A DNA stretch of 64,000 nt from Streptomyces sp. 11x1 (GTDB taxonomy: Bacteria > Actinomycetota > Actinomycetes > Streptomycetales > Streptomycetaceae): the NCBI RefSeq assembly GCF_032598905.1, contig NZ_CP122458.1, forward strand, positions 10,131,001-10,195,000, given 5' to 3'. This document shows, piece after piece, positions 19,884 to 37,509 of the stretch. Under the pieces are notes generated by a model. That model was not told the origin of the DNA. It worked only from the letters and a program-made list of their open reading frames with translations, and made no database searches. How positions within the stretch are numbered: position 1 is the first letter of the stretch; the number at the start of each line of letters is the position of its first letter. The position numbers were made by a program, and so were the translations under genes.

Positions 19884-19889
19884 CTCCGG

Positions 19890-20723: not shown

Positions 20724-20905
20724 GCAATAGCCCTTCTGCGGAAGTACGTGTCGGTCTCAGCGCGCGGTGAGGACTTCGCGCGCACGGAACTCGGATCGCG
20801 AGGGAGCGGACAAACGGACCGGTGATCCCCGCGCTCCCCGCCCTTCTGCCGGTGCAACCGGCTCGCCGGACGCGCTGTTCCCGGCGAGACCACTTGATTC
20901 TCCGG

Positions 20906-23011: not shown

Positions 23012-23418
23012 AGACAGTCCGATCGGTCGTGCGGGAGACGTTCGAGGCTGGATGATATCCGGCCGTGCACATCGGCCAGCTGTCGTTCTCCGGCGTGATG
23101 GCGGCGCTCCCCATGGACCTCGCCCCTGGGACGTCTGCACCGCCGACCGCCCCCGGCTCATCCGGTGCACTCGCGAAACCCGCTCCGACCCACTCCGCTC
23201 CAGGGATCGTGGAGAAGAGCCCACAGGGGTCGTGAAGCTGAACTCAGACGCGGTGCAGAGCTGTTGCACCCGTGCTGAAGATTGCCCCCCGAGGCCCGGA
23301 GCCTGGCCACAGCACGGCGCCCCGGCCAACGGCCAACGGCCAACGGCCAACGGCCAACGGCCAAGCGTACGCGGCGGGAAAGTCGGGTCCTGCGGACGCC
23401 TGCCGGGCTACGGCACGG
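23012..23418. other. Kinase promoter region with heptanucleotide repeats
   Basis: No gene is recognised in these 407 bp. The right half contains the 7-bp tandem array described separately. The left part lies upstream of the kinase and should hold its promoter. Confidence 0.4.
23324..23365. repeat. Six tandem copies of a 7-bp repeat
   Basis: GGCCAAC is repeated five times without change, followed by one GGCCAAG copy (42 bp). It lies between the thioesterase stop and the kinase promoter. Such short identical units are prone to slippage. Confidence 0.9.
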
Positions 23419-23916
23419 CTACGACCTGGGCGGGACGGGGAACACCATGCAGCTGCTGGTGGCGTGGGCCAGCAGCCGGTCCTCGGAGTCGCGGAGCTCG
23501 GCCTGGGCCAGGGCGGTGCGGCGGCCGCTGTTGAGGACGGTGCCGATCGCACGGACCTTGCCGGTGCCTACGGTGACCGGACGCAGGAACTTCAGGGTCA
23601 GGTCGAGCGAGGTGTAGCCCATGCCCCGCGGCAGCACGGACTGCACCGCGCAGCCGGCCGCCGAGTCCAGGAGGGTGGCGTACACCCCGCCGTGGACGCT
23701 CCCGATCGGGTTGTAGTGCTCCTCGCCCGGCACCAGGACGAAGACCACCCGGCCGTGCTCGGCCTCCTCCAGGGTGAAGCCCAGGGTGGCGGCCACCGGA
23801 GGGGCTGGCAGCCGCCCGGCGAGCATCTCCCGGAGGAAGTCGAGTCCGCTGTGGTCACCGACGGCTCGTGCGGAGACGGTGGGGTCCTCCCACGCGAACG
23901 TACGTGACCTGCGCAT
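23419..23916 (-). CDS. PaaI-family hotdog-fold thioesterase
   Basis: A 165-residue acyl-CoA thioesterase of the hotdog fold. The motif YNPIGSVHGGVYATLLDSAAG contains the HGG signature and the catalytic Asp/Glu position, and LTLKFLRPVT is the following strand. It probably hydrolyses aromatic or short acyl-CoA. ATG 23916 follows GGGAG with ideal spacing; a TTG-started extension of ten residues is less likely. It is transcribed divergently from an HxlR-type regulator across a shared operator region, the standard layout for a locally controlled gene. Confidence 0.85.
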   Translation of the reverse strand: MRRSRTFAWEDPTVSARAVGDHSGLDFLREMLAGRLPAPPVAATLGFTLEEAEHGRVVFVLVPGEEHYNPIGSVHGGVYATLLDSAAGCAVQSVLPRGMGYTSLDLTLKFLRPVTVGTGKVRAIGTVLNSGRRTALAQAELRDSEDRLLAHATSSCMVFPVPPRS

Positions 23917-23932
23917 TTCGACTCCCGGAGTA

Positions 23933-23992
23933 GCTGACTTCGCCAAATGAAGCTAGCTGGGTACACATCTGGCTGTCAATCGCGAAGTCAGC
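23933..23992. promoter_or_regulatory. Divergent promoters and 11-bp inverted operator arms, thioesterase/hxlR
   Basis: GCTGACTTCGC (23933-23943) is mirrored perfectly at 23982-23992, 38 bp apart. On the minus strand TTGACA (23979-23974), an 18-bp spacer and TAGCTT (23955-23950) form a near-consensus promoter for the thioesterase. TAGGAT at 23994-23999 is the likely -10 of the regulator. One arm therefore sits beside each start region, as expected for an HxlR dimer repressing both. Confidence 0.65.
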
Positions 23993-24005
23993 CTAGGATG
24001 AGCAC

Positions 24006-24521
24006 ATGAGGTGGCTGGAGACGAGCGCGGAGAACTGCACGGTCCACCGGACGCTGGATCTGGTCGGCGAGAAGTGGTCGTTGCTGCTGCTGCGGGACGC
24101 CATGAACGGCGTACGGCGTTTCGACGACTTCCGGCGCCACGTCGGGCTGTCCGAGGCCGTCCTCGCGGACCGGCTGCGCAAGCTGGTCGCGGCCGGGATC
24201 CTGGAGACCGTCGCCTACCGCGAACCCGGCAGCCGCACCCGGCGCGAGTACCGGCTCACGTGCAAGGGCTGGGACCTGTGGCCCGCGATGATCGCCCTCA
24301 AGCAGTGGGGCGACCGGTACACGGCCGACCCCGAGGGGCCGCCTCTGGAGGTGAGTCACGCGGACTGCGGCGACACCGTGCGGACGGTGGTCGTCTGCGA
24401 GGAGGGCCACGGACCACTGACCCCGCGGGAGGCCCGTACCTGCCCCGGACCCTCGGCGCGGTTCCTCGCCCGGACGGACGTCCGCGGTGACGAGAACCGG
24501 CCCGCCACGGAACGGTCTTGA
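24006..24521 (+). CDS. HxlR-family transcriptional regulator
   Basis: A 171-residue winged-helix regulator. The N-terminal cysteine segment ENCTVHRTLDLVGEKWSLLLL and the helix RFDDFRRHVGLSEAVLADRLRKL are diagnostic of HxlR/MarR-like redox- or ligand-responsive repressors. The C-terminal third carries CxxG-type cysteines (ADCGDTV, CEEGHG), a zinc-ribbon-like feature of the longer HxlR proteins. TAGGAT lies seven bases before the ATG, implying a leaderless message. It probably controls the divergent thioesterase and itself. Confidence 0.88.
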   Translation: MRWLETSAENCTVHRTLDLVGEKWSLLLLRDAMNGVRRFDDFRRHVGLSEAVLADRLRKLVAAGILETVAYREPGSRTRREYRLTCKGWDLWPAMIALKQWGDRYTADPEGPPLEVSHADCGDTVRTVVVCEEGHGPLTPREARTCPGPSARFLARTDVRGDENRPATERS

Positions 24522-24660
24522 CCCTCTTCATCGTGAAGTGCGAGGTGACGTTCGTGACCCGGGGGACGGTCATCACCCGCCCGCTGAGGAACGCCTCGTG
24601 CGCGCCGAGATCGGCGACGGCCACCCGCACGAAGTAGTCCGCCGTACCGATCAGCAGCCC
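24522..24660 (-). pseudogene. C-terminal remnant of an Lrp/AsnC-family regulator
   Basis: The minus strand encodes TADYFVRVAVADLGAHEAFL and then TNVTSHFTMKRVKTV, the characteristic C-terminal RAM-domain sequence of Lrp/AsnC regulators. The DNA-binding half is missing and the original stop codon is lost. It lies back to back with an azlD-like remnant on the plus strand. This matches the usual divergent asnC/azlCD gene order with the middle removed. Confidence 0.6.
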
Positions 24661-24727: not shown

Positions 24728-24844
<117 letters not shown>

Positions 24845-24848
24845 CGCG

Positions 24849-25637
24849 TCAGGGCTTGACGTAGGTGCAGATGGCGAGCGGCGAGTCCGGGCCGTACGGG
24901 GCCGCGTCGGACCAGTCGCCCAGGCGGCGCTCCGGTTCGAGGCCGACGGCGCGGGCGTAGGCGTCGAACTCCTCCGGGGCGGTCAGCCGGGAGACCTCGG
25001 TGCCGACCCGGGTGGTGCCGTCGGACTCGTACCAGACGTGGGAGAGGTGCCACAGGGATCCCTCCGGCAGGAGGACGGAGTGGCTCTGCAGTCCGGTGCC
25101 CGGCTCCGGGTAGGGCGAGAAGTACGTGGCGCGGGCGCTGCCCTCGTGCAGGGCGATGACGGCCGGCTTGTTGTGGGTCTCCACGACCAACCGGCCGCCG
25201 GGAGCGAGCAGATCGGCGGCGCGCCCCACGGCCTGCCGTTGCTCCTCGGGAGTCAGCAGCATGGAGAGGGTGGCGCAGATCGCGTACACGAGCCCCGCGG
25301 TGCCGTCGGCGGTGTAGGTGCGGATGTCGGCGTGCACGGGCTCCACGGGGGTGTCCTCGGTGAGGTCGCGGCGCAGCAGGGCGAGCATCTCGGGTGAGGA
25401 GTCGACGCCGGTGATCCTGCCGACCCGGCGGGAGAGCGGGAGGGCGATGCGCCCGTTCCCGACGCCGAACTCGACCGTCCCCGAGGCCGGATCGGGGTGC
25501 AGCGAGGCCAGGAGGTCCACCTCGGCGACGACGGACGCGTCGTCGGGGAAGAGACGGTGGTACCAGCCGTCGAACTGCCGGCCGTAGCCGATGTCGTCGA
25601 CGATGTCGGAAGTGGTGGACGTGGTGGATGTGCTCAT
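24849..25637 (-). CDS. Class I SAM methyltransferase, CypM/LinM-like, of the linaridin-type cluster
   Basis: A 262-residue S-adenosylmethionine-dependent methyltransferase with motif I TVEFGVGNGRIALPL, motif II VDSSPEMLALL and a post-motif LLAPGGRLVVETHNK. Placement as the last gene of a RiPP operon next to an ABC exporter parallels CypM, which N,N-dimethylates the amino terminus of cypemycin. It overlaps the preceding small membrane peptide gene by four bases (ATGA). Methylation of the mature peptide's N-terminus is inferred; a small-molecule substrate cannot be excluded. Confidence 0.8.
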   Translation of the reverse strand: MSTSTTSTTSDIVDDIGYGRQFDGWYHRLFPDDASVVAEVDLLASLHPDPASGTVEFGVGNGRIALPLSRRVGRITGVDSSPEMLALLRRDLTEDTPVEPVHADIRTYTADGTAGLVYAICATLSMLLTPEEQRQAVGRAADLLAPGGRLVVETHNKPAVIALHEGSARATYFSPYPEPGTGLQSHSVLLPEGSLWHLSHVWYESDGTTRVGTEVSRLTAPEEFDAYARAVGLEPERRLGDWSDAAPYGPDSPLAICTYVKP

Positions 25638-25825
25638 GGGTGGTGCCTCCGTTTCTTGGGTGTCGTGGTCCTCGGATGGGCGTTCCGTCTGGCCTGGGAG
25701 CAGGCACCGAGCAGCACCACGAGGGCGACGCCGAGAACGGCGGGGGTGCTGACGGCCCGGGTGGCGAGGAGGAAGCCGACGATGCCGAGGGCTACCACGG
25801 ACGGGATGAGCAGAAAATCGTTCAT
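25634..25825 (-). CDS. 63-aa membrane peptide of the linaridin-type cluster
   Basis: Two hydrophobic helices span residues 5-22 (LLIPSVVALGIVGFLLA) and 27-44 (TPAVLGVALVVLLGAC), followed by a basic tail ending KKRRHHP. It is coupled to the methyltransferase by ATGA and lies 38 bp after the ABC exporter. The topology would place the basic tail in the cytoplasm. It has no family I recognise. Immunity, exporter accessory or modification-complex scaffold are all possible roles. Confidence 0.65.
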   Translation of the reverse strand: MNDFLLIPSVVALGIVGFLLATRAVSTPAVLGVALVVLLGACSQARRNAHPRTTTPKKRRHHP

Positions 25826-25863
25826 GAACTTCTCCTGTCGGGATGTCTGCTCCTGTCGGGGTG

Positions 25864-27756
25864 TCAGGACGCCAGGTCGCTGAGTTCCTGGAGCCGGGCG
25901 AGCCTGCGGTACAGCTCGCTGTGCCGGTGGAGTTCGTCGTGCGTGCCCACGGCGTGCACCCGCCCCCGGTCGAGCACGACGATCTGCTGGGCCTCGGTGA
26001 CCGTGGACAGCCGGTGGGCGATGGCGATGACCGAGCAGAAGCCGGAGATCATCGCGATGCTGTCGCGCAGCGCGTTCTCCGACTCGGTGTCGAGGTTCGC
26101 GGTGGCCTCGTCCAGCAGCAGGAACCGGGGGGCCTGCAGCAACGTACGGGCGATGGCGAGGCGTTGGCGCTGACCGCCCGACAGTCCGGCGCCGCGGTCG
26201 CCGAGCGGGGTGTCCAGGCCCTGTGGCAGCGCGGCGATCACCTCGGTCAGGTTGGCCATGCGCAGTGCCTCGGCGATGTCCTTGTCGTCGGTGTCCGGCG
26301 CGCTGTAGGTGAGGTTCTCCCGGACGGTGCCGCGCAGCAGGGTGTGGTCCTGGTCGACGTAGCCCACGATGGACCGCAGCCGGTTGAGCGGCAGGTCGGT
26401 GATGTCCGTGCCGTCGATGCGGATCACGCCGGACACCGGGTCGAAGAGCCGCTCGATCAGCTGGAAGACCGTGGACTTGCCGCCGCCGGAGGGACCGACG
26501 ACGGCGGTCAGCCCCTCGGCCGGGACGGTGAAGGAGACCCCGTCGAGGACGATCTTGTCGCTGCCCGGATAGGAGAACCGGACACCGTCGAAGGTGAGTC
26601 CGGGCTCGTACCCGCGCGCGAACGAGCGGGCGGCGCGCGGCCGTTCCGCCGGCCGGCCGTTCTCCGGTTCCGTCTCGACCTCGATCTTGCCCAGTTCCGC
26701 GAGCCGTTCCACCGAAGCCCTGCCGATCTGGAACTGCGCGATCGACTCGAACAGCGTCAGCAGCGGCGCCACCAGATAGAACAGATAGAGGATGAACGCC
26801 GTCAGATCGGCGGTCGGCATGGCCCCGGTCGCGGTGCGGGCCGCGCCCAGACCGATGACGACCGTCAGGGCGAGCTGTGTGCCGATGCTCATGGTCGGGT
26901 CGAGCAGCGACGACATCACCGTCACCTTGATCCCTGACTTCCGGGCCCGCCGCGCGATGGCCGCGATCCCCTCGGTCTCCCTGGCCTCGGCCCGCGACGC
27001 CTTCACGGTGGGCATCGCCCCCAGCACCCGCAGCAGGGCGGTGCCGAAGGTACCCAGGTCGGTCTGGTTGCGCACCGACACCCTGCGCACCCCGCGCGCC
27101 AGGAAGATCGAGACGACACTGGTCGCGCCGAGGCAGACCAGGGTGGCGGTCAGCAGCACGGTGTCGATCCAGGCCATCAGCACGATCCCGCCGACGACCA
27201 GGAAGCTGTTGTTGAGGATGCTGTCGATCGCGTGGGTCATCGTGGAGCGGGCCAGCATCGTGTCGCTGACCATCCGGGAGAACACATCACCCTGCTGCAG
27301 ACCGCTGTAGGCCTTGAACCGGGAGCGCAGCAGCCGTGCGGCCAGGGTCCGGCGGATGTCGTAGACGATGTTCTCCCCGGCCAGCCCGATGACATACGAG
27401 TGGGCCGCGCCGAGGAGCGCGTCGGCGATGAACAGCGCCGCACCCACCATGATCGGGCCGGTCAGCGAGCGGCCCTCACCGACGGCGGCGACCAGGCCAC
27501 CGATGACGGCGGGCTGGGCCAGGGACGTGGCGGCGCCGACCAGACCGAGGAAGATGCCGAGCAGGACCAAGCGGCGGTGCCGCCCCATGGCCCGCCATGG
27601 TTTGGCTCCCTCGCCCCACAGCAGATGCAGATTGAGCTGGGGAACCGCCCGGTGGGCGGCGCGCCGCCCGGCACCGGCGCCGGTCTCCTTCTCCAGGTTC
27701 ACCGGCGGGTCCTGCGGGCGAGTGCGCCGTCCCCGGCCGGCCGGACGGTCACTCAT
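25864..27756 (-). CDS. ABC exporter (fused permease-ATPase), LinT-like
   Basis: A 630-residue half-transporter. About 40 polar residues precede six transmembrane helices (residues about 60-345). The ATPase domain has Walker A GPSGGGKST, signature LSGGQRQR and Walker B FLLLDEAT. There is no N-terminal C39 peptidase domain, so it does not cleave the leader; a separate protease must. Position between two small membrane peptides in the RiPP operon indicates export of the modified peptide, as for CypT in cypemycin biosynthesis. Confidence 0.88.
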   Translation of the reverse strand: MSDRPAGRGRRTRPQDPPVNLEKETGAGAGRRAAHRAVPQLNLHLLWGEGAKPWRAMGRHRRLVLLGIFLGLVGAATSLAQPAVIGGLVAAVGEGRSLTGPIMVGAALFIADALLGAAHSYVIGLAGENIVYDIRRTLAARLLRSRFKAYSGLQQGDVFSRMVSDTMLARSTMTHAIDSILNNSFLVVGGIVLMAWIDTVLLTATLVCLGATSVVSIFLARGVRRVSVRNQTDLGTFGTALLRVLGAMPTVKASRAEARETEGIAAIARRARKSGIKVTVMSSLLDPTMSIGTQLALTVVIGLGAARTATGAMPTADLTAFILYLFYLVAPLLTLFESIAQFQIGRASVERLAELGKIEVETEPENGRPAERPRAARSFARGYEPGLTFDGVRFSYPGSDKIVLDGVSFTVPAEGLTAVVGPSGGGKSTVFQLIERLFDPVSGVIRIDGTDITDLPLNRLRSIVGYVDQDHTLLRGTVRENLTYSAPDTDDKDIAEALRMANLTEVIAALPQGLDTPLGDRGAGLSGGQRQRLAIARTLLQAPRFLLLDEATANLDTESENALRDSIAMISGFCSVIAIAHRLSTVTEAQQIVVLDRGRVHAVGTHDELHRHSELYRRLARLQELSDLAS

Positions 27757-27795
27757 CGCGTGCCCCCGGTCCCGCGGTGGCCGCCCGCTCCCGGT

Positions 27796-27921
27796 TCACT
27801 CGTGCTCCCTGCCGTCCTCGTCCGGTTCGGCGCGGTCCTTGGCGAGCCGCAGGCCGGCCTTGAGCAGGCCCACGGCGAGTATCAGGAGGCCGAGGAGGAT
27901 GAAGGGGGTTGCGTTGTCCAT
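27796..27921 (-). CDS. 41-aa single-helix membrane peptide of the linaridin-type cluster
   Basis: The peptide has one helix (ATPFILLGLLILAVGLLKAG) followed by a charged tail (RLAKDRAEPDEDGREHE). Its ATG lies two bases after the stop of the DUF5819/SdpA-like gene, so translation is coupled. Too short for standard gene callers, but the spacing, membrane character and stop just before the exporter gene support it. Function unknown. Confidence 0.6.
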   Translation of the reverse strand: MDNATPFILLGLLILAVGLLKAGLRLAKDRAEPDEDGREHE

Positions 27922-27923
27922 GG

Positions 27924-28544
27924 TCACACCTTCGCGGGGGACTTGGCCGGGGTCCGCGTCAGCGGGGTGCCCGGGGCCTGCGGATCGAGGGGGACGAACG
28001 GGGAGACGAACATCAGCTCGGGGCGGTGGCGCGTGTCGAAGCCGGTGGCTCGGGCCAGGGCGAACTGGAAGCCCCGGATCTCCTCGGTCACCGGACCCTC
28101 CGACCTGATGAGGACGCGCAGGTGCTCGGTGACCATCCGGTATCCGGGCGTGCGTGCCGCGGCCTCGAAGCCGCCGAACTCCAGGGTCGGCATGATGTCG
28201 GCGCACGCGTCGAACACCCCCTTGTCCGCACGGCGCGTGGGGAACCACACGATGTGCTGGGGCTTGCGCGTCTCGGTCGAGAACGCATCCCGCCAGGGGG
28301 AGGCGCTGCCCTCGACGTCCACCGTGCGGTACAGGAAGTGACTGTCGTGCATGCACGGATTGGGAGCGAAGAACCTCCAGTTGGGCACCAGCGAGAGGAT
28401 GTCCTTCGAACGGAACCGGGAGAACTGCTCGAAGGGGTGCTGGCCCGCGACGGTGACGAGCAGCATGGCGGCTCCGGCGATCCTCCAGGCCGCGCCTTCG
28501 CCGGTGAACGGGTTCCGCAGTGAGGGGCGGCGTGGCGTGCTCAT
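27924..28544 (-). CDS. DUF5819/SdpA-like protein, candidate LinL/CypL equivalent
   Basis: A 206-residue protein with one N-terminal transmembrane helix (AGAAMLLVTVAGQH) and a soluble domain opening with the hallmark LVPNWRFFAPNPCMHD, typical of SdpA/DUF5819 proteins. These occur next to HTTM-domain proteins in peptide-antibiotic operons. In linaridin clusters CypL works with CypH, and this gene sits in the matching position. ATG 28544 overlaps the hydrolase stop (ATGA). Probably membrane-bound, with the domain outside or at the membrane surface. The equivalence to CypL is inferred from context. Confidence 0.7.
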   Translation of the reverse strand: MSTPRRPSLRNPFTGEGAAWRIAGAAMLLVTVAGQHPFEQFSRFRSKDILSLVPNWRFFAPNPCMHDSHFLYRTVDVEGSASPWRDAFSTETRKPQHIVWFPTRRADKGVFDACADIMPTLEFGGFEAAARTPGYRMVTEHLRVLIRSEGPVTEEIRGFQFALARATGFDTRHRPELMFVSPFVPLDPQAPGTPLTRTPAKSPAKV

Positions 28545-30460
28545 CGTGCGGCCTCCTTGCCGAGCGTGACGGATCGGCTGCGCCGGGGTGCCCGGGTGCC
28601 CTCGTCGAGGCGCTGGAAGAACGCGAGGACGCGGTCCGTGACCTGGTTGGCGAGACGGCTGTTGAGCAGCAGCGTGTCGTGCCCCGCCCCCTCGACGACC
28701 ACCGTCTCGCTGGGCGCCCCGCGGTGGGCCTCGGCCAGTTCCCGGTGCATCAGCAGCTGGTCGGGGTCGCGGTCCACGGTCCGCTGCGCGGAGATCACCA
28801 GACCGGGTACGCCCTCGATCGTGGGGAGTCGGCCGGGGTACGCCGCGAAGTCCTCCTGCAGCGCCTTCCATTCGCGGCGGGCCGCGTACCACATCCGCGC
28901 GTCGGCGTACTGGGCGAAGACCTTCTCCTGGTAGGCGGCGGGCAGTTCACGGATCCACCACGGGTGGGTGAGCAGGGCTCCGGTGCCCAGGCGCAGGGCC
29001 CGGCTCATGGACGCGAAGGTACCGCCCAGGCCGGCGCCGGTCACTCGCTGCTGGGCGGAGCGGTTGAACTGGTCCGGGTGCGAGGAGTCGAGGTACACGA
29101 CACCGTGCACCCGGTCGCCGAGGTGCCGGGTGGCCCGGCGGACGAGCTCCCCGCCGATCGAGTGGCCGACCAGGATCACCTTGCGGTGCGGTGCCACGGC
29201 GCCGTTCACCAGGTCGACGAGGTCGTCGACCGACTCCGACAGCCGGTAGACGGTGGTCGCCCTGCGCCGACTGCCCGCGTATCCGGCGCGGGCATAGGCG
29301 ATGACGCCGTACGGGGTCTCGTGGGACAGGCGCTCGCTGATCCAGGCGTAGTGCTCGCTGGTGGACAGCAGGCCCGCGGCGAGCACGAACACCGGGCGCT
29401 CGCCGTCACCCACCGACATCTCCTCGTACTGGAGCCGGTTGCCGTGCCGGGTCGTCAGTACGCGGGAGGTCCGCCAGCCCTCGGTGGCGCGGATGCGCCG
29501 CTGGACGGCGGTGCCGGCCGCCACCGCCGTCGCCCCGGCGAGCAGGGTGAGAGCGGCCGGCAGGGCGCGGTCGTCGCGTCCCGCGACGGCCGGGTGGCTG
29601 CGGGGGGCCGCCGTGTAGGCGACCAGGGGGTGCATCGCGGGGAACGCGGTGGCGAACCTGCCGAGCCCCATGAAGTAGCCGTTGGCAAGGTGGAAAGCGG
29701 CGGCGCTCGCGAGGACGGGACGGGTCAGCCGGCCCTCCTTGAGATAGGCCAGCGGGAAGAGGCACTCCAGCGCCAGCACACTGTGGGCGAGCAGCCTGGC
29801 GGCCCGGGGGTTGCTCCGGATCCATGAGTGCATGCCCTCGTGGCCGTAGGTGTGGGTGCGCATCACGCCGGACAGGGCGGAGCCGTCCCGCCAGTCCGGG
29901 CCGAGCAGCTTGACCCAGCCGGAGACCAGGTAGGAGAGGTTGGACTGCAGGGCGACGTACCAGAGCAGCGCGTCCTTGGCGGCCGGGGAGGGCACCAGCC
30001 GGGCGCCGCCGGTCGCGAGCTGGACAAGGGTCGCCACCTGGTCGGCGCCGTCGCTGCCGTAGTGCTGACGGGGGCCGAGCAGAGCGGAGGTCGCTCCCAG
30101 GAAGAGGCTGCCCGCCCCGCGCCAGTTCGCCCTGCCCGGCAGCAGCATCGCGGTGGCGACCCCGGCCCGCGTGAGATGCAGGGCCGTCGTGGTCCGTGGC
30201 CCACTGACGACGTCGACCAGCCGACGCAGCAGGGGATTCGCGTGCGCGATGCTGTCCTTGGCGATCTCCCAGTCGTTCATGCCCCCCTTGCCCATCTCGT
30301 GGCGCTGGGTGAGGTATTCGAGGGACGAGGTGAGGCTCGTCGCGGCGGCCAGCCGCTCCGACAGCCCCAGCGCACGGTCACGGCCGACCGGCAGCGGGCT
30401 GAACACCGCGGAGGCGACCTTGCTCGGCACCGCGGAAGTGATCCTTCGGACGCGTTTCAT
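28541..30460 (-). CDS. HTTM-domain / alpha-beta hydrolase fusion, LinH/CypH-like
   Basis: A 639-residue fusion. The N-terminal half (residues about 75-345) is a multi-helix HTTM (vitamin-K-carboxylase-like) domain with LSYLVSGWVKLLGPDWRDGS. The C-terminal half is an alpha/beta hydrolase with nucleophile elbow VGHSIGGELV (Ser about 432) and catalytic His in VEGAGHDTLL (about 591). This architecture is that of CypH, the core linaridin enzyme implicated in Thr dehydration and related chemistry. ATG 30460 follows AGAGG; the open upstream extension is non-coding. It lies 116 bp after the precursor gene. Confidence 0.8.
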   Translation of the reverse strand: MKRVRRITSAVPSKVASAVFSPLPVGRDRALGLSERLAAATSLTSSLEYLTQRHEMGKGGMNDWEIAKDSIAHANPLLRRLVDVVSGPRTTTALHLTRAGVATAMLLPGRANWRGAGSLFLGATSALLGPRQHYGSDGADQVATLVQLATGGARLVPSPAAKDALLWYVALQSNLSYLVSGWVKLLGPDWRDGSALSGVMRTHTYGHEGMHSWIRSNPRAARLLAHSVLALECLFPLAYLKEGRLTRPVLASAAAFHLANGYFMGLGRFATAFPAMHPLVAYTAAPRSHPAVAGRDDRALPAALTLLAGATAVAAGTAVQRRIRATEGWRTSRVLTTRHGNRLQYEEMSVGDGERPVFVLAAGLLSTSEHYAWISERLSHETPYGVIAYARAGYAGSRRRATTVYRLSESVDDLVDLVNGAVAPHRKVILVGHSIGGELVRRATRHLGDRVHGVVYLDSSHPDQFNRSAQQRVTGAGLGGTFASMSRALRLGTGALLTHPWWIRELPAAYQEKVFAQYADARMWYAARREWKALQEDFAAYPGRLPTIEGVPGLVISAQRTVDRDPDQLLMHRELAEAHRGAPSETVVVEGAGHDTLLLNSRLANQVTDRVLAFFQRLDEGTRAPRRSRSVTLGKEAAR

Positions 30461-30576
30461 GGAACCTCTTTTCCTGATACTTTTGAGCACGTTTTTTCGC
30501 GTGCGACGGAACCCGCTGCCGGACCAGAACAGCCCTCTGGTCCGACAGCGGGTTCCTATGAGTTCACCGCCGGTCG

Positions 30577-30846
30577 TCAGACCGCGGGCGGCGGGCCACC
30601 GGCGGCGGCGAGAGCGGCCGCGTTCTGGGCGTTGGCCTCCGCCGCCAGGTTGTTCGCCTCCGCGGCCTGGGCGACACCGACCACGGCGCCGATGCCGGCC
30701 GCGGCGGCGCCGAGCCCCTCGGCCGCCTGGGCGATCCGGCCGATCCGCGCGATGCGCGGGGTTCCCAGGGTCGGGCGAGCGGCGACGTAGACGACACCCT
30801 CGACGGGGATTTCCACGCTGTTCAGCGCGTTCTCGGTGCTGCTCAT
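30577..30846 (-). CDS. RiPP precursor peptide, linaridin-like
   Basis: An 89-residue peptide with a strong ribosome site (AAAGGA). The N-terminal part MSSTENALNSVEIPVEGVVY is acidic and leader-like. Residues 25-30 (PTLGTP) fit the PxxxTP motif known from linaridin precursors. In CypA this motif spans the cleavage site, which would place the core start at Gly28. The remainder (RIARIGRIAQAAEG, then Ala/Gly/Val-rich sequence, then GGPPPAV) has no Ser, Thr or Cys apart from Thr29. It lies directly upstream of the CypH-like gene. No similarity to non-RiPP families is seen. Confidence 0.7.
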   Translation of the reverse strand: MSSTENALNSVEIPVEGVVYVAARPTLGTPRIARIGRIAQAAEGLGAAAAGIGAVVGVAQAAEANNLAAEANAQNAAALAAAGGPPPAV

Positions 30847-31066
30847 TTCTTTTTCCTTTCACGTTCGGGGCTTCGGAATTTCTTTTCTCCCGGTGCCCTT
30901 CTGGAGAAAACATTAGGCTCTCGCCGACCGCCTCCGCATCGATAAAAATGCCTATTCTCGGCGCCGTCCTTCGGGTGGCCTGAATTCCATGGGAACGGTC
31001 AACGGAGAACGGAGAACGGAAAAGGCCTGGACCGATTCGGCCCAGGCCTTTCAGGAACGGGTGCGC
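30847..31066 (-). promoter_or_regulatory. Precursor-gene promoter region
   Basis: This 220-bp gap is A+T-richer than average. On the minus strand it carries AATAGGCATTTTTATCG (30959-30943) and GCCTAATGTTTTC (30918-30906), likely promoter or operator elements. An intrinsic terminator at 31021-31051 separates it from the oxidoreductase, so the precursor is transcribed from its own promoter. The long untranslated leader ends in AAAGGAAAAAGAA before the ATG. Confidence 0.5.
31021..31051 (-). terminator. Intrinsic terminator after the oxidoreductase gene
   Basis: AAAGGCCTGGACCG and CGGCCCAGGCCTTT pair as a 14-bp stem with one mismatch around ATT. On the minus strand it is followed by TTTTCC, making a canonical terminator 15 bases after the oxidoreductase stop. 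Confidence 0.8.
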
Positions 31067-32497
31067 TCAGGTCTTGCCGTGTCGCCGCCCGAGGTGACGC
31101 AGGGCGGACGCGGCGGCGTTCGCGCCGCACATGCCGTGGGCGCCGGCGCCCGGCGGCGTGGCCGCCGAACAGATGAACATGCCCGGCACGCCGGTGCTGT
31201 AGGGGTCGAGCGCGGCGCGAGGGCGCATGACCAGCTGGAAGGCGGTGTTCGCCCCGGCGACGATGTCACCGCCGACGTAGTTCGGGTTGTACTCCTCGAA
31301 CGCGGCCGGCGGGCGGACGGCCATGTCCAGGACCCGCTCGCGGAAGCCGGGCGCGAAGCGCTCGATCTGCGCGACGATCGCCTCCGTGGCGTCGCCGTCG
31401 TAGCCGTGCGGCACGTGCGCGTACGTCCACACGGGATGGAGGTCGCCCTTCGAGCGCCGGGGGTCGGCCAGATACTGCTGCCCGACCAGCACGAACGGCC
31501 TCCGAGGCATACGGCCGGCGTGCACGGCCCGCTCGGTGGCGGCGACCTCCGCGTAGGGCCCGCCGAGGTGGACGGTGCCCGCCCGGCGGGCCGCCTGGTT
31601 GGTCCAGGGCACTCCGCCCTGGACGGCGAAGTCCACCTTGAAGGCGCCGGGGCCCTGGCGGTAGCGCCGGTAGGCACGGGCCACCCGGACCGGCAGCAGA
31701 TCCCCCAGGATGTCGGCCACCGTCCCGGGGGCCACGTCGAAGAGGGTCAGGTCGGCCGGGGGCAGGTCGGCCCGGGAAAGCACGCGCGTCCCGGTCTCGA
31801 CGCGACCGCCGAACTCCGTGAGCTGGGCGGCCAGCGCGTCGCTGATCGCCCGGGAGCCGCCGGCGGCCACCGGCCAGCCGTGCCGATGGCCGGCGGCGAT
31901 GATCGTCAGGCCGATCGCGGCGCTCGCGGGCCGGTCGAACGGGCGGAAGGCGTGTGCGGCCACGCCGGCGAAGAGGGCACGGGCGCTCTCGGACCGCCAT
32001 CGCCGGGCCACCGCCGCGGTCGGCAGCAGGGCCTGCGGTCCGAAGGCCGCGAGGCGCACGGGATGGCGCGGCACGTGCGCGAGGGGGCGCATGAGGTCCT
32101 CGGCCAGCGCGTCGTAGCCGTCCACGAGCGGCCCGAAGGTCCGCCGCCACCTGCGGCCGTCGCCCTCGGGGAGACCCTCCGCCGTCTCCTCGACCGACCG
32201 GTGCAGGACCCCTGCCTCGCCGGAGTCCAGCGGATGCACGCAGTCGATCTCCGGCAGGCACCAGGTCAGCCCGTGGCGGCCGAGGTCGAGGCTCCGCAGG
32301 AAGGGCGAGCCGACGGCCATGGGGTGGGTGGCGGAGCAGTGGTCGTGCAGGAGACCCGGTGTCAGTTCGCTGGTGCGGGTGCCCCCGCCGATGGTGTCGG
32401 CGGCTTCGAGGACGGTGACCTCGACGCCCTCCCGGGCGAGGAACACGGCCGCGGCGAGACCGTTCGGACCGCTGCCCACCACGACGGCCGTAGTCAT
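31067..32497 (-). CDS. Phytoene-desaturase-like FAD/NAD(P) oxidoreductase of the RiPP locus
   Basis: A 476-residue flavoprotein of the CrtI/amine-oxidase superfamily. The dinucleotide fold VVVGSGPNGLAAAVFLAREG and acidic VTVLEAADTIGGGTR are at the N-terminus. FICSAATPPGAGAHGMCG near the C-terminus is the second FAD-contact motif. ATG 32497 follows GGAGACGT. It precedes the RiPP precursor in the same direction but is separated by a terminator. It probably oxidises the peptide or an unrelated lipid-like substrate. Membership of the cluster is supported by position and a shared upstream motif, not proven. Confidence 0.75.
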   Translation of the reverse strand: MTTAVVVGSGPNGLAAAVFLAREGVEVTVLEAADTIGGGTRTSELTPGLLHDHCSATHPMAVGSPFLRSLDLGRHGLTWCLPEIDCVHPLDSGEAGVLHRSVEETAEGLPEGDGRRWRRTFGPLVDGYDALAEDLMRPLAHVPRHPVRLAAFGPQALLPTAAVARRWRSESARALFAGVAAHAFRPFDRPASAAIGLTIIAAGHRHGWPVAAGGSRAISDALAAQLTEFGGRVETGTRVLSRADLPPADLTLFDVAPGTVADILGDLLPVRVARAYRRYRQGPGAFKVDFAVQGGVPWTNQAARRAGTVHLGGPYAEVAATERAVHAGRMPRRPFVLVGQQYLADPRRSKGDLHPVWTYAHVPHGYDGDATEAIVAQIERFAPGFRERVLDMAVRPPAAFEEYNPNYVGGDIVAGANTAFQLVMRPRAALDPYSTGVPGMFICSAATPPGAGAHGMCGANAAASALRHLGRRHGKT

Positions 32498-32540
32498 ACG
32501 TCTCCTGCGTCCGCTCGACGATCGCGCCGGTCTGCCCGGC

Positions 32541-32573
32541 GCGCGGTGGTGCACGGTGCGCGGTGGTGCACGG
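32541..32573. repeat. 17-bp tandem duplication in the oxidoreductase leader
   Basis: GCGCGGTGGTGCACGGT occurs twice head to tail (the second copy lacks the last base), about 45 bp upstream of the oxidoreductase start. Confidence 0.7.
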
Positions 32574-32583
32574 AAAAGAATTG

Positions 32584-32608
32584 AACGGGCCCGCGAAGGG
32601 CCCGTTCG
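32584..32608 (-). terminator. Perfect hairpin with T-rich tail between the histidine kinase and oxidoreductase genes
   Basis: GAACGGGCCC and GGGCCCGTTC form perfect 10-bp arms around GCGAA. On the minus strand AATTCTTTTCC follows, so it can terminate transcription from the two-component operon. It lies between the A+T-rich promoter-like motif (32694-32716) and the oxidoreductase, so it may also act as an attenuator. Confidence 0.7.
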
Positions 32609-32693
32609 GGCCGATTCACCACTCTGCGGGACGAAGGAAGGCCGTCCCGGCGCCTTTGGCTCTCCCACGATAGAGCGATCGGCCGTCCCGGCG

Positions 32694-32716
32694 CGATTCG
32701 CAGAATTGCCTAATTC
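32694..32716 (-). promoter_or_regulatory. A+T-rich motif shared with the precursor promoter
   Basis: On the minus strand AATTAGGCAATTCTGCG resembles AATAGGCATTTTTATCG in the precursor promoter region (30959-30943). Both include TAGGCA followed by a T-rich run. A 14-bp direct repeat GGCCGTCCCGGCGC (32640-32653 and 32681-32694) lies alongside. A shared regulator site is inferred. Confidence 0.4.
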
Positions 32717-32732
32717 ACGGCCCCCGGATCGC

Positions 32733-34091
32733 CTAACTGGCGTCCCAGTTCATGTCCGGTTCGGGCTCGGAGGGTGCGTGCGGCTTCGCATGGCGTCCGG
32801 AGGATCGACGGGAGACCGGACCCGATGCGGAACCCGGCGCGGCGCCCTCCTCGGATTCCTGGAGCTCGGCTTTCGGGAGCACCGGGAAATGCGCGATGAG
32901 CCACCAGCCACCCTCGTCGTCCGGCCCAGCCGTCAGGGAGCCGCCAACCGCCTCCGCCCGCTCCCGCAGCCCGATCAGCCCGTAGCCGCCACGACCGCCC
33001 GTGGGACGGGAGACCCGCCCCGTGGGCCCCTCGTTGTAGACGTCGACCCGCAGCAGGTCGTCGCGGGTGCGGTGGACGCGCACCGTGGCCTGGGTGCCCG
33101 GAGCGTGCCGCCGTACGTTGGTCAGCGCCTCCTGCACCACCCGGTGGACCGCCGAACCCACCTCGGGCAGCAGACCGCTTCTGCGGGCGGCTCCGGTGAT
33201 CTCCAGCTGGGCGGTCGAACCGTCGCCCTGGCTGCTGAACTCCGAGACGAGCTTTGCGAGTTCGCCGTACGGCTCCTCGGGGCGTTCGAGGGAGACCTGT
33301 TCGCCGTCCTCGCGCAGCACCCGGATCAGACGGCGCATGGAGTCCATGGTCCGCTGCCCGGCCTCGGCGATGTTGCCCAGGATGGGGCCGACCTGGTGGG
33401 GCTCGCTCTCGTGGACGACAGTGGCGGCGTGCGCCTGCGCGATGATGCCCGTCACGTGGTGGGCGACGAAGTCGTGCAGTTCCCGGGCGAGTTGGATCCG
33501 CTCGGCGAGCCTGACGGCGGCGATCGTGCGCCGGCGCCGGGCGTCCAGGGTGCGCAGGTAGCACCCCGCGCCGACGGCGCCACCGACCGCGAACGTCAGC
33601 AGGAACGGGTACGTGAGGGTGATCCCCATACCTCCTGTGCGCAGGGGCTCGTCGATGACGCTGGCCCCCATCGCGGCGGCCAGCGCGAAGGCGACCCGGG
33701 GTCGGGCCACCTGGCGGCAGGTGCGGGCGATCAGGACCAGCATGCACGCCGTCTCCAGGAGCCCCCACTGGGGCATGGCCCAGCCCGTCAGGGAGATGCT
33801 CAGGGTCACCGTCGACGAGACGGCCGCGGCGGCCCCGGTACGCCAAGTGATGCTCAGCCGTGATTCGGGCACGAGCACCAGGGCCAGGGCGGCGGGGCCC
33901 GTCACCAGCGGCAACCAGTCGAGAGGGCCACGATGGTGCGACACGATGATGCCGACGTCGAGCAGCCACAGCACACCCAGCGCCGGGTACAGGGCGTGGC
34001 GGTCCAGCCGTCGCGCGGGTAGCCGGGGGCGGCCGTGGTGGTGCGGCTGGGTTGCTCGTGCCGAGAGTGCCCCGAGTGACGAAGTTGTCAT
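32733..34091 (-). CDS. NarL-type sensor histidine kinase
   Basis: A 452-residue membrane kinase of the HisKA_3 class. Five or six transmembrane helices fill residues 30-180, followed by the H-box LARELHDFVAHHVTGI (His about 208) and the HATPase domain with VVQEALTNVRRHA and GYGLIGLRERAE. A Ser/Pro-rich tail of 45 residues follows. It lies 99 bp downstream of its cognate response regulator on the same strand. It is immediately upstream of the RiPP-locus oxidoreductase, so it may control that locus. The signal sensed is unknown. Confidence 0.88.
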   Translation of the reverse strand: MTTSSLGALSARATQPHHHGRPRLPARRLDRHALYPALGVLWLLDVGIIVSHHRGPLDWLPLVTGPAALALVLVPESRLSITWRTGAAAAVSSTVTLSISLTGWAMPQWGLLETACMLVLIARTCRQVARPRVAFALAAAMGASVIDEPLRTGGMGITLTYPFLLTFAVGGAVGAGCYLRTLDARRRRTIAAVRLAERIQLARELHDFVAHHVTGIIAQAHAATVVHESEPHQVGPILGNIAEAGQRTMDSMRRLIRVLREDGEQVSLERPEEPYGELAKLVSEFSSQGDGSTAQLEITGAARRSGLLPEVGSAVHRVVQEALTNVRRHAPGTQATVRVHRTRDDLLRVDVYNEGPTGRVSRPTGGRGGYGLIGLRERAEAVGGSLTAGPDDEGGWWLIAHFPVLPKAELQESEEGAAPGSASGPVSRRSSGRHAKPHAPSEPEPDMNWDAS

Positions 34092-34190
34092 AGAACCGGA
34101 GGCTAGGCATGTGCATGCCTCCCCGGCAGAAGGTGGATCAATGTGTGGGAAGCGTCATAGATCCATTACAGGGCGTTCGGGGAATCCCCG

Positions 34191-34868
34191 TCAGTGCCCG
34201 GTCCGTACCATCCCGTTGGCCCAGGCCCAGGCGGCCACCTCGACGCGGTTGCGTACGCCGAGCTTGTGGTGGATGTGCCCCAGATGTGTCTTCACGGTGG
34301 ACAGCGACAGACACAGCTCGTCGCTGATCTCCTGATTGGTCCGGCCCACCGCGACCAGACGGGCCACCTCCAACTCCCGTGCGCTGAGCGAGGATTCGGT
34401 CACCCCGGTGCCCTCCGCCGGGGTCGCCGACCGCTCCTCCAGATGCTTCAGCAGCCGGACCGTCACCGCGGGCGAGACCAGTGCGTCACCGCGGGCCGCC
34501 GCCCGCACCGCCTCGATCAGCAGCGCGGGCGCCGCGTCCTTGAGGAGGAAGCCGCACGCTCCGTTGCGCAGAGCGATGTTGAGGTAGTCGTCCTGGTCGA
34601 AGCTGGTGACCACCACCACCTGGGTCGGGTGTGTGGCCCCCGGTCCGGCCAGCAGCCGGGTCACCTCCAGCCCGTCCAGCTTCGGCATCCGGATGTCCAC
34701 CAGACACACATCCGGCCGCAAGGCGCGCGCCGCCTCCACGCACGCGAGTCCGTCGGCTGCCTCTCCGATCACCTCGATTCCCTCCTGGGCGTCGAGGATG
34801 AGACGGAAACCGGCCCGGATCAGATCCTGGTCGTCGGCGATCATCACACGTGTGGGGGTGCTGCTCAC
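34191..34868 (-). CDS. NarL/LuxR-type response regulator
   Basis: A 225-residue regulator. The receiver domain has DDQDL, the phospho-acceptor Asp in VCLVDIRMPKLDG and the conserved Lys in FLLKDAAP. The C-terminal helix-turn-helix is LSARELEVARLVAVGRTNQE followed by LSLSTVKTHLGHI. GTG 34868 is chosen as start because the receiver fold begins two residues later; in-frame ATGs upstream at 34880 and 34892 are alternatives. It pairs with the downstream histidine kinase. Confidence 0.88.
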   Translation of the reverse strand: MSSTPTRVMIADDQDLIRAGFRLILDAQEGIEVIGEAADGLACVEAARALRPDVCLVDIRMPKLDGLEVTRLLAGPGATHPTQVVVVTSFDQDDYLNIALRNGACGFLLKDAAPALLIEAVRAAARGDALVSPAVTVRLLKHLEERSATPAEGTGVTESSLSARELEVARLVAVGRTNQEISDELCLSLSTVKTHLGHIHHKLGVRNRVEVAAWAWANGMVRTGH

Positions 34869-35133
34869 GCGGCCGAGCATGCCATGGATCATCCGCCCGG
34901 TCCGGCGGTCCCGGGAAGCGGACGGGCGAACTCCCATGCCGAATCGGGCGGTTGGCGCTTACCCGGCGAAAGTTCCGCCCCGGAGCGAGGGACCGAGGCC
35001 GATCGGCCGATGACTACCGCCAGGTATCGGTCGAATGGTCGATGGCCGTTGCCCGGGTGTCACGGAAGAGTCACAGCGCAGCCAACGAACGACAGCGGGT
35101 CCTCGACCCCTACTTTGAACAAGGCAGGCACCC

Positions 35134-35508
35134 ATGACAGTGGACAGCTCCGGCCGACTCAGCGCCCGGGAAATGGAGATCCTCCTTCTGGCAGCCCACG
35201 GCATGTCGGATGCGGACATGTCCCGTGAGCTGTCGATCTCACCCCGCACGGTAGCCTCCCATATGCGCAGCATCCGGGAGAAGTTGTGCGCGAAGAACCG
35301 TACGCATCTGGTGGTCACCGCGTTGCGCGCGGGAATCCTGGCGCTGCGCACGGACCGCACGGACAGGACGGCCTGGACGGACGGCATGGGTGAAACGTTC
35401 CGCTTGACTGGCCGGAGCGGAGTCCGGGCCCGGCCCGCCGGCATCGCGTGGCAGGTGGCTGAGCGTCGCATCTCCGAGTACCGGACACATCGAGTGCCCC
35501 GGCCCTAG
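35134..35508 (+). CDS. Stand-alone LuxR-type HTH regulator
   Basis: A 124-residue protein consisting of a LuxR helix-turn-helix at residues 8-65 (LSAREMEILLLAAHGMSDAD, TVASHMRSIREKL) and a basic, disordered tail. No receiver or ligand-binding domain is attached. Such free DNA-binding proteins often serve as pathway-specific regulators in Streptomyces secondary metabolite loci. It lies between the two two-component systems, in opposite orientation. Confidence 0.75.
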   Translation: MTVDSSGRLSAREMEILLLAAHGMSDADMSRELSISPRTVASHMRSIREKLCAKNRTHLVVTALRAGILALRTDRTDRTAWTDGMGETFRLTGRSGVRARPAGIAWQVAERRISEYRTHRVPRP

Positions 35509-35629
35509 CGCGGCCCGGGGTGCGTGTGCGTCAGTTGCCGAACCAGGGCGGCGGCTTCGATCGCTGCCGTGACGGTGATCGTGCTTCTCTGATGGACAGC
35601 AGAAAACAATCAGGGCGGACCGTGCGGGC

Positions 35630-36829: not shown

Positions 36830-37509
36830 CCGGACTCCCGTCCGGGTCCGCCGCCGGCGGAGCGCGACCGCCTGAGCAGACCCGCGCGTTCGGCCAGCAG
36901 TGCCGCCTGCACCCGGCTGCCCACCTCCAACTTGGTGAGCAGCGCGCTCACATGGTCCTTGACCGTGCCCGTGCTCAGATGCATCCGGTCAGCGATGTCG
37001 GTGTTGGACAGCCCCTCCGTGATGAGGACCAGGACGTCCCGCTCACGTTCGGTCAGCCGGTCCACGAGCCGGACGGCGGCCTCCCGGAGCCCGTTGTCCA
37101 GATAGCCGTCGACGACGGTCCGGGTCACCCGGGACGACAGCGCCACCCCACCGGCCGCCAAGGTGCGTACGAGATACGGAAGTTGCTCCGGATCGGTGTC
37201 CTTGAGGAGGAAGCCCGCTGCTCCCGAGCGGAGGGCGGCCGCCACGTACTCGTCCATGTCGAAGGTGGTGAGCATGGCCACCACGGGAGGGCGGGGGAGT
37301 CTCCTGAGTTCGGCGAGGACGGTCAGCCCGTCCACGTCCGGCATACGGATGTCCAGCAGGACGACCTCGGGGCGCAGCTCCCGTACGGCGTGCACGGCCC
37401 GGCCGCCGGGGACCGCCGCGACCACGTCGATGTCGTCCGCGGAGTTGAGGATGTGCTCGAAGCCCGTACGGATCAGGGCTTCGTCGTCGACCACCAGTAC
37501 CCGGATCAC
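36826..37509 (-). CDS. NarL/LuxR-type response regulator
   Basis: A 227-residue response regulator beginning MIRVLVVDDEALIRTGFEHI (GTG start). The phospho-acceptor is in VVLLDIRMPDVDG and the Lys in FLLKDTDP. The C-terminal HTH reads LTERERDVLVLITEGLSNTD and STGTVKDHVSALLTKL. Its stop overlaps the kinase ATG, so they form a two-gene operon. Targets unknown. Its position about 5 kb upstream of the RiPP genes makes a regulatory link possible but weak. Confidence 0.88.
   Translation of the reverse strand: MIRVLVVDDEALIRTGFEHILNSADDIDVVAAVPGGRAVHAVRELRPEVVLLDIRMPDVDGLTVLAELRRLPRPPVVAMLTTFDMDEYVAAALRSGAAGFLLKDTDPEQLPYLVRTLAAGGVALSSRVTRTVVDGYLDNGLREAAVRLVDRLTERERDVLVLITEGLSNTDIADRMHLSTGTVKDHVSALLTKLEVGSRVQAALLAERAGLLRRSRSAGGGPGRESG

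Follow-up and report, generated by a model that had tools for sequence, protein, structure and literature searches.

Gene content and organization of the locus

The window, i.e., the complete stretch of 64,000 nucleotides of Streptomyces sp. 11x1 that was analyzed, harbors eight genes in the order F-A-H-L-p41-T-p63-M on the minus strand between positions 24849 and 32497. The first-pass annotation, made from the sequence, had described a set of ORFs on one strand with ATGA overlaps or short gaps, and all eight ORFs were found intact, without internal stops and with gaps of 2 to 220 bases. H and L as well as p63 and M overlap by 4 bases each (ATGA), L and p41 are spaced by 2 bases, and the remaining gaps comprise 220 (F-A), 116 (A-H), 39 (p41-T) and 38 bases (T-p63).

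The gene H (28541..30460, minus strand) encodes a single protein of 639 amino acids, a homologue of LinH (CypH), in which an HTTM region (residues ~1-310) is fused to an α/β hydrolase (~340-620) and which is a predicted peptide epimerase/dehydratase. The adjacent gene L (27924..28544, minus strand) encodes a DUF5819-like homologue of LinL (CypL). Both assignments are based on profile homology. In the HMM comparison that had been proposed as a check, a profile of 66 window-type H proteins recovered CypH (E = 2.5e-45, positions 71-609), and a profile of 59 window-type L proteins recovered CypL (E = 3.3e-18) as well as the L protein of the legonaridin-type locus L087 (E = 1.8e-24). Profiles built from window-type proteins only also recover H of the legonaridin-type loci. 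Since H and L of cypemycin and legonaridin-type loci are recovered in this way, the locus firmly belongs to the linaridin machinery and is classified as a linaridin-family RiPP cluster. The earlier proposal of a linaridin-type cluster is thus borne out by this homology and by the PxxxTP hexapeptide of the precursor; in addition, the S. scabies orthologue has been called a linaridin cluster in the literature.

Among 25 aligned H proteins, the HTTM residues D137, D140, Y177, K184, T202, E232, H257 and R268 are identical in all, and position 205 is a tyrosine in 23 and a phenylalanine in 2. The hydrolase residues Ser434 and Asp458 are kept in 24 of the 25 and His594 in all of them, the triad being intact in the window protein. 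Fourteen residues are invariant among 17 aligned L proteins. The Pfam HTTM model does not recognize the window H itself, and it matches 8 of 22 H family members (best E = 8.1e-4), while SdpB matches 7 of 22 (best E = 3.1e-5; window 0.011), both counted at E up to 1. Of the fusion of HTTM and hydrolase named in the first-pass annotation, Pfam thus recognizes the hydrolase half in the window protein and the HTTM half in family members; the domains of the peptidase-free ABC exporter, the class I methyltransferase and the FAD oxidoreductase were found as described. L had been called DUF5819/SdpA-like. The DUF5819 part stands, with a weak match of the window protein (E = 4.9e-4, 21.2 bits, cut-off 27.1) and matches in 12 of 17 L family members (best 1.4e-6), but no support was found for the SdpA part, since none of the 17 had an NCBIfam match at E up to 1, a library which presumably includes an SdpA model. 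Searches against PDB sequences gave hydrolase-type enzymes among the best 60 of 142 matches of the H profile, two matches of the HTTM profile, both at chance level, and chance-level matches only for L. Recoding in relatives was considered due to TGA stops in some HTTM matches and was rejected for genome G006, whose three stops all fall within the final 12 codons, beyond the point where the open frame ends.

The gene T (25864..27756, minus strand) encodes an ABC exporter without a peptidase domain (ABC_tran and ABC_membrane), and M (24849..25637, minus strand) a CypM-like class I SAM methyltransferase (Pfam Methyltransf_25, E = 1.5e-14), for which N-terminal dimethylation is predicted. In the cypemycin locus L084, the iterated M profile matches a protein (222 bits) that is located where M would be expected. 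A daptide reading was rejected, since M reaches 65.2 bits against the daptide methyltransferase model NF041820 (cut-off 175) and no other daptide model is among the matches listed. Two small membrane peptides are encoded on the same strand, namely p41 (27796..27921, 41 amino acids), with profile matches in 12 loci including the window, all of the scabies-like subgroup, and p63 (25634..25825, 63 amino acids), with profile matches in 17 loci including the window. No protein family model matched p63 above its cut-off; a role in immunity is a guess. No evident protease is encoded among the eight genes.

The gene F (31067..32497, minus strand) encodes a CrtI/CrtO-like FAD oxidoreductase according to family models and profile search. 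Of the 82 loci of at least 9 kb, some of which repeat one genome or end at contig ends, 58 contain a homologue with at least 500 bits. F had been regarded as an additional gene, which is contradicted by its presence in all three legonaridin-type control loci; the three cypemycin-type loci, in contrast, lack it. As stated before, a CypD-like decarboxylase and a precursor cysteine are lacking: none of the eight cluster proteins has a flavoprotein decarboxylase among its listed matches (for T and F the best 25 NCBIfam matches), and A contains no Cys.

Between the precursor gene and H lies a hairpin with 21-nt arms and a 7-nt loop (30508..30556, minus strand; fold z-score -6.1), the stability of which was reached by none of 200 shuffles. 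An inverted repeat was found at this position in six of seven regions tested and is absent in S. noursei (L015). The hairpin is predicted to be an attenuator or an mRNA-processing element. Upstream of F, a sensor histidine kinase with a HisKA_3 domain (HK1, 32733..34091, minus strand) and a LuxR-type response regulator, its class read from sequence (RR1, 34191..34937, minus strand), form a two-component system, which is adjoined by a small LuxR gene (35134-35508). Of 18 related loci, 11 carry close homologues of both HK1 and RR1 next to the cluster (L003, whose sequence does not extend beyond F, is uninformative here), so this two-component system, with the small LuxR gene, probably belongs to the cluster and provides its regulators.

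The precursor peptide and its core

The precursor gene A (30577..30846, minus strand) starts with an ATG preceded by an RBS-like AAAGGA and encodes 89 amino acids; 13 further distinct PTLGTP homologues were found. The hexapeptide PTLGTP (residues 25-30; 30757..30774, minus strand) corresponds to the cleavage motif PxxxTP of linaridins (PMC9927463, in excerpt). Behind it follows an Ala-rich core of 59 residues (30580..30756, minus strand), which by composition count contains no Ser, Thr or Cys. A comprises a hydrophobic stretch of 19 residues (mean hydropathy 1.57), and neither of the two NCBIfam linaridin models matched it at E up to 1. The first-pass annotation had been silent on the hexapeptide, the Ser/Thr-free core and the prior recognition of the orthologous locus.

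The 14 distinct PTLGTP precursors were chosen by the exact hexapeptide, so their motif identity is given by construction; the independent count is that of the L clade of the window, in which 13 of 14 members have PTLGTP and the search for precursor ORFs found none in the remaining one. Over the 14 precursors, 26 of 926 core residues (2.8%) are Ser, Thr or Cys, compared to 12.8% in their leaders, 29.6% in three cypemycin-type cores and 18.1% in three legonaridin-type cores. No alignment column of core Ser/Thr/Cys is occupied in more than 7 of the 14, and three of the cores hold 3 to 5 such residues. The core length varies from 58 to 88 residues, with many replacements. Differences at codon positions 1/2/3 were 4/1/21 between the precursors L005 and L007, 5/7/13 between the window and L007 and 15/19/17 between the window and L008, i.e., a third-position bias is seen in the closer pairs only. 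The A-H-L order recurs across many genomes, and together with this bias and the strong hairpin after the precursor it places the locus beyond chance.

The precursor census required P-x-x-x-T/S-P, an RBS-like score of at least 3, less than 12% Arg and more than 45% A+G+V+I+T in the core, a filter that favors hydrophobic cores. The core Ser/Thr/Cys share of 8.0% in 73 other precursors is therefore a biased figure, these having been filtered further (PV/PI..TP, core below 45 residues, position window). Of 83 censused loci, some of which repeat one genome, 15 gave no precursor candidate, and the candidates of L036 and L100 were all implausible. When 13 loci were inspected again, a few, e.g., L024, L016 and L019, showed putative precursors whose motif is altered, and none was seen in S. 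anandii (L009), where H, L, T and F are present and neither precursor nor M was detected.

Relation to known linaridins and the proposed modification

The closest known system is BGC#31b of S. scabies/scabiei 87-22 (L005), which has the same genes in the same order, an H protein 88-90% identical and a PTLGTP precursor; LinL is single-copy in this genome and located at the orthologous locus. It is named a linaridin cluster in excerpts of PMC7369419 and PMC8914351, which contain no discussion of its core composition. Its core has one Ser and one Thr, whereas that of the window has neither. The linaridin type of the orthologue was thus published before and the locus itself is no new discovery; what is new is the undehydratable core, together with the clade that shares it and the cassette swap described below.

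The cypemycin locus (type A, L084) shares with the window the fused HTTM-hydrolase protein, L, an M-like protein and a PxxxTP precursor. However, its core contains 6 Ser/Thr/Cys in 19 residues, including two Cys, compared to none in 59, F was not seen there, and the T profile is matched only in part (156 bits), which indicates an exporter of another make. Of the type A features, a LinD decarboxylase is not among the matches listed for the eight cluster proteins, and a C-terminal Cys for AviCys is absent from A. All three legonaridin-type (type B) loci, L087, L088 and L089, contain L and F; T is full-length in two and partial in L089, and M is full-length in L087 only. Their HTTM and hydrolase are two genes instead of one fused gene, and their cores hold 4 to 7 Ser/Thr/Cys. 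The type B trait of an oxidoreductase in place of a decarboxylase is found in the window via F, a match which rests on the three control loci, since the type B enzyme is termed a short-chain oxidoreductase in part of PMC9927463 and F is a CrtI-like flavoenzyme. Next to the clade of the window (after L016) in the L tree are the two-precursor clusters of S. noursei (L015, L108) and S. scopuliridis (L026). They resemble the window in H (65-68% identical) and in the leader of the H-proximal precursor, but differ by two short precursors with cores of 23-34 residues, by F being located after T and not before A, and by the missing hairpin in the one tested (L015). Corynaridin has a PxxxTP precursor, LinL and no decarboxylase as well, but split HTTM/hydrolase genes, no methyltransferase and eight Ser/Thr, all of which are dehydrated (PMC9927463, in excerpt). 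By its machinery the window cluster counts as a linaridin variant, but by its product it is not a typical member, since only the Thr of the hexapeptide could serve for dehydration.

With no Ser, Thr or Cys in the core, H and L would be unable to form dehydro-residues there, which points to another main action. We consider it somewhat better than an even bet that in this linaridin cluster H and L mainly epimerize the core. Gene content, homology, motif and composition are observed directly, whereas all chemical steps on this peptide, and epimerization above all, are inferred. A would be the precursor, and H and L would jointly modify the stretch that follows PxxxTP while embedded in the membrane, mainly by Cα epimerization of Ala, Val, Ile and other residues, i.e., by proton abstraction as for Thr elimination, followed by reprotonation. 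The leader would be removed at the PxxxTP motif, M would dimethylate the new N-terminus and T would export the product. Provided that cleavage occurs at the cypemycin position (PTL|GTP), a peptide of 62 residues with a dimethyl-Gly1 and at most one dehydrobutyrine (Thr2) would result. The monoisotopic masses computed for this cut are 5608.99 without modification, 5637.03 with dimethylation and 5619.01 with dimethylation and loss of one water; a cut behind the hexapeptide would give 5353.87 and 5381.90. This proposal is supported by the homology of H and L to CypH/CypL and legonaridin-type proteins with candidate catalytic residues kept, and by the retention of PTLGTP in the L clade while the core columns of Ser/Thr/Cys are not conserved. 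Excerpts of the literature list LinH among the peptide epimerases of the α/β-hydrolase family (PMC12661438), describe grmL as indispensable for grisemycin and as possibly encoding an epimerase, with D-residues in type-A linaridins (PMC10373908), and report D-residues for salinipeptins (PMC7641383). Against it, D-residues are reported for cypemycin-type linaridins, to whose H the window protein is only about 27-29% identical, the three cores with 3 to 5 Ser/Thr/Cys make dehydration possible within the clade, and F might make a quite different modification. In addition, cypemycin dehydration is assigned to kinase/lyase-type enzymes in part of a review (PMC10880069), which conflicts with this picture of H and L.

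For the clade as a whole, we tentatively suggest essentially dehydration-free linaridins, i.e., long Ala-rich peptides whose chief modification would be multi-site L-to-D epimerization by LinH and LinL; this is possible, though we would not expect it. Among the papers listed by a search of open-licence full texts for linaridins free of dehydration, none contained the term linaridin. If true, dehydration and epimerization would be two outcomes of one membrane-embedded Cα deprotonation, with the conserved HTTM residues Lys184 and His257 (and Asp, Glu) as candidate bases. HTTM proteins would then represent a broader group of membrane enzymes that deprotonate carbon atoms of peptides, comparable to the vitamin-K-dependent carboxylase, which abstracts a proton at the γ carbon of Glu. 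Epimerization of the core by H and L would also offer a route to many D-residues in long ribosomal peptides. Published accounts of LinH/LinL conflict, with an epimerase (PMC10373908, PMC12661438) opposed to another dehydration route (PMC10880069). A natural substrate that offers almost no residue for dehydration allows the two activities to be told apart with no need for mutants.

An ordinary linaridin with a single dehydration, in which H and L would act only on the PTLGTP Thr (Dhb2) and epimerization would be absent or minor, appears unlikely. This Thr is the sole dehydratable residue common to the clade precursors, both in the 14 picked by hexapeptide and in 13 of 14 L clade members, and a cut of the cypemycin precursor before hexapeptide position 4 gives a computed mass of 2095.13, which we take to fit the reported one. 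Yet one dehydration in a 62-residue product is an odd reason to keep a full-length, conserved H and L, and in corynaridin all eight Ser/Thr are dehydrated (PMC9927463, in excerpt).

It is less probable still that H and L leave the core chemically unchanged, recognizing the leader and cleaving or inserting the peptide, so that the product would be an N-methylated but otherwise plain hydrophobic bacteriocin. The SdpAB-SdpC system is the model for such a bacteriocin, and the SdpB-like HTTM half in 7 of 22 H family members, the intact hydrolase triad, the lack of an evident protease among the eight genes, and the hydrophobic stretch of A would agree with this reading. The HTTM half of the window protein itself stays below the cut-off of the SdpB model TIGR04033 (15.4 versus 178.4 bits). 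However, none of the 17 L proteins matches an NCBIfam model, and LinH/LinL are credited with peptide modification in excerpts of PMC10373908 and PMC12661438.

Cassette swap in Streptomyces sp. MNU76

In Streptomyces sp. MNU76, the segment from A through M (24839..30960) is replaced by a divergent allele with 85.1% identity to the window, whereas the flanks are 94-100% identical, with 97-99% over the aligned flanking pieces. The exchange includes A, H, L, T and M but spares F, which retains the old allele; co-adaptation between F and the core is therefore not tight. This argues against F making the key core modification, e.g., a desaturation or oxidation of aliphatic residues, with H and L being auxiliary; despite the wide occurrence of F, including all legonaridin-type loci, its absence from the three cypemycin-type loci makes this explanation very improbable as well. 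Decay of the cluster, with a core composition due to drift, would fit the variable core length, the many replacements and the S. anandii locus, but is scarcely credible given intact ORFs, retained catalytic residues, a common hexapeptide, the third-position bias in closer pairs and a conserved hairpin.

The swap separates a travelling set (A, H, L, T, M and the small membrane peptides) from a staying set (F and the regulators). That an otherwise nearly identical strain carries a different version of the cassette suggests diversifying selection on the product, which would be expected for a bacteriocin.

Gene order and precursor of the cluster

The cluster comprises eight genes in head-to-tail order, all encoded by the minus strand. 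These are F (32497-31067), coding for a CrtI/CrtO-like FAD oxidoreductase, the precursor gene A (30846-30577), H (30460-28541), coding for a LinH/CypH homologue with an HTTM and an α/β-hydrolase half, L (28544-27924), coding for a DUF5819-like LinL/CypL homologue, p41 (27921-27796), T (27756-25864, an ABC exporter), p63 (25825-25634) and M (25637-24849, a methyltransferase), p41 and p63 encoding membrane peptides of 41 and 63 amino acids. All eight ORFs start with ATG, end with TGA and lack internal stops; H and L as well as p63 and M overlap by four bases. Full-length H is present once in the 10.7-Mb source genome (the window being 10131001-10195000 of contig 1), its only other match being weak and partial (E=3.1e-4). 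A Pfam HTTM search led to the place of this weak match, 5449446-5450306 of contig 1 (G000), where a distantly related second HTTM-domain gene is located.

The gene A has an RBS-like AAAGGA. In the encoded peptide the leader is succeeded by PTLGTP, a sequence that conforms to the PxxxTP hexapeptide of linaridins described in PMC9927463. Such a precursor lies just upstream of H in 13 of the 14 loci of the clade to which the window belongs in the L tree; in the fourteenth, S. anandii (L009), it was looked for and not found. This S. anandii contig, seen twice (L009 and L107), keeps H, L, T and F, and neither a precursor nor a methyltransferase was found at the locus, which is possibly being lost. 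In closer precursor pairs the third codon position takes most differences (positions 1/2/3: 4/1/21 for S. scabies L005 and L007, 7/5/21 for L003 and L005, 5/7/13 for the window and L007); the window and L008 (15/19/17) are less skewed, and so are the distant pairs. Directly behind A, the 116-nt gap folds into a hairpin at -57.2 kcal/mol (z=-6.1, none of 200 shuffles being as stable), and an inverted repeat was found at the corresponding place in six of seven regions tested. Such a hairpin would allow more of A to be produced than of the enzymes.

Relation to known linaridin loci

The control loci were collected with NCBIfam models. The model of the cypemycin precursor found the cypemycin locus itself in G299, the precursor there having the cypemycin sequence, and a second model found legonaridin-type loci in G194, G191 and G186, all above its cut-off. 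Profiles built from window-type relatives only (59 L and 66 H proteins) were searched against 23,836 segments from the six-frame translation of the collected loci and of 20 kb of the window. The comparison with CypH and CypL, which the first-pass annotation had proposed as a check of its linaridin assignment, gave matches to both, CypH with E=2.5e-45 (model positions 71-609) and CypL with E=3.3e-18. In the legonaridin-type locus L087, the profiles matched L (1.8e-24), the HTTM protein (3.8e-49) and the hydrolase protein (6.1e-20). Asp137, Asp140, Tyr177, Lys184, Thr202, Glu232, His257 and Arg268, among others, are kept in the HTTM half of 25/25 proteins; in the hydrolase half, CypH included, Ser434 and Asp458 are kept in 24/25 each and His594 in 25/25. 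The H homologue at 8886-10691 of L095 has Ala for the nucleophile Ser and Thr for Asp458, so the triad is not universal among members.

H homologues were found at 43 named loci (two being short fragments). At E<=1e-30, 48 of 392 Streptomyces genomes gave a match, the source genome counted; many of these matches are distant or half-length. In the tree of 86 L proteins, midpoint-rooted for drawing only, the window falls into a clade of seven (support 100/99) nested in the clade of 14 (100/97), which adjoins the long-branched L016 and is then followed by the group of the S. noursei and S. scopuliridis clusters. A separate group of seven (100/97) holds the cypemycin- and legonaridin-type proteins. 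Of the 82 loci of at least 9 kb, 58 carry F at >=500 bits. At this score F is present in each of the three legonaridin-type loci but absent from the three of cypemycin type. The window thus joins a type A feature, the fused H, to the flavoenzyme that the type B controls possess.

A pair of precursors, their cores short and hydrophobic, is encoded in many relatives outside the clade of the window. Many fused-H clusters (L015, L018, L020, L022, L027, L028, L030, L054, L055 and others) have two different PxxxTP precursors of this kind with Gly/Ala-rich cores, which suggests two-peptide linaridins. One locus of S. bicolor (L017, 9001-18431) contains two tandem H-L pairs, and upstream of each pair there is a PxxxTP precursor.

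The orthologous locus of S. scabies 87-22 is called a linaridin cluster, first noticed with cypemycin, in a passage of PMC7369419, and is listed in PMC8914351 as cryptic BGC#31b, with no significant change under cello-oligosaccharides for the one gene listed. It can be equated with the published cluster, since LinL was found once in G296 and the coordinates of H there equal those in NC_013929.1.

A core without dehydratable residues

The core behind the hexapeptide comprises 59 residues; 24 of these are alanines, whereas Ser, Thr and Cys are absent. The latter three make up 13.3% of the neighbouring proteins, and at this rate their absence by chance has a probability of 2.2e-4, a rough figure because the core is low in complexity. 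The cores of 14 distinct PTLGTP precursors contain 26 such residues in 926 (2.8%; 0, 1, 1, 2, 1, 2, 0, 5, 2, 4, 2, 3, 2 and 1 per core), and at most 7 of the 14 sequences have one in any core column. The leaders of the same precursors reach 12.8%, cypemycin-type cores 29.6% (n=3) and legonaridin-type cores 18.1% (n=3). The exception to this scarcity is the Thr of the hexapeptide. Cutting the cypemycin precursor before hexapeptide position 4 gives a computed mass of 2095.13, in agreement with the reported mass of cypemycin; in this register the window product would begin with Gly-Thr-Pro and retain one Thr.

The open-licence papers searched yielded no statement on an undehydratable core. Passages of such papers list LinH among the α/β-hydrolase-family peptide epimerases (PMC12661438), describe grmL as indispensable and a potential epimerase, and report D-residues in type-A linaridins (both PMC10373908) and, including D-Pro, in salinipeptins (PMC7641383). 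However, according to a review passage, cypemycin is dehydrated by enzymes of the kinase and lyase kinds (PMC10880069), which is at odds with the passages on LinH and grmL. As the core lacks dehydratable residues and H and L are well conserved, epimerization is the activity most likely to remain, and would be what H and L perform on this core.

Probable cassette exchange in Streptomyces sp. MNU76

The locus of Streptomyces sp. MNU76 (L006) is 97.1%, 97.4% and 99.2% identical to the window in the flanks (19840-24533, 31078-35509 and 35502-36094), but only 85.1% at 24839-30960, which comprises M, p63, T, p41, L, H and A. In 500-base bins, identity is 94-100% in the flanks and 80-91% inside the cassette. 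On the right the transition is abrupt (31.0-31.1 kb); on the left, the final 130 aligned bases (24.4-24.53 kb) already show a drop in identity, and about 300 bases are unaligned. The encoded proteins are 97.4% (F), 86.4% (H), 82.2% (L), 88.0% (T) and 81.9% (M) identical. Among nine others compared, the closest to H, L, T and M belong to other species, which differ between the proteins. On the simplest reading of these alignments, the whole cassette from A to M seems to have been exchanged by recombination for a divergent allele in MNU76. F and the two-component system beside it (HK1/RR1), the probable regulators, were not exchanged.

A second two-component pair (HK2/RR2, 35630-37509) adjoins the first; compared with HK1/RR1 from most relatives, its identity is about 36-42%. 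Further along the window, a cobalamin riboswitch (98.7 bits) is located on the minus strand at 49741-49923, upstream of apparent cobalt-transport genes named from their sequence.
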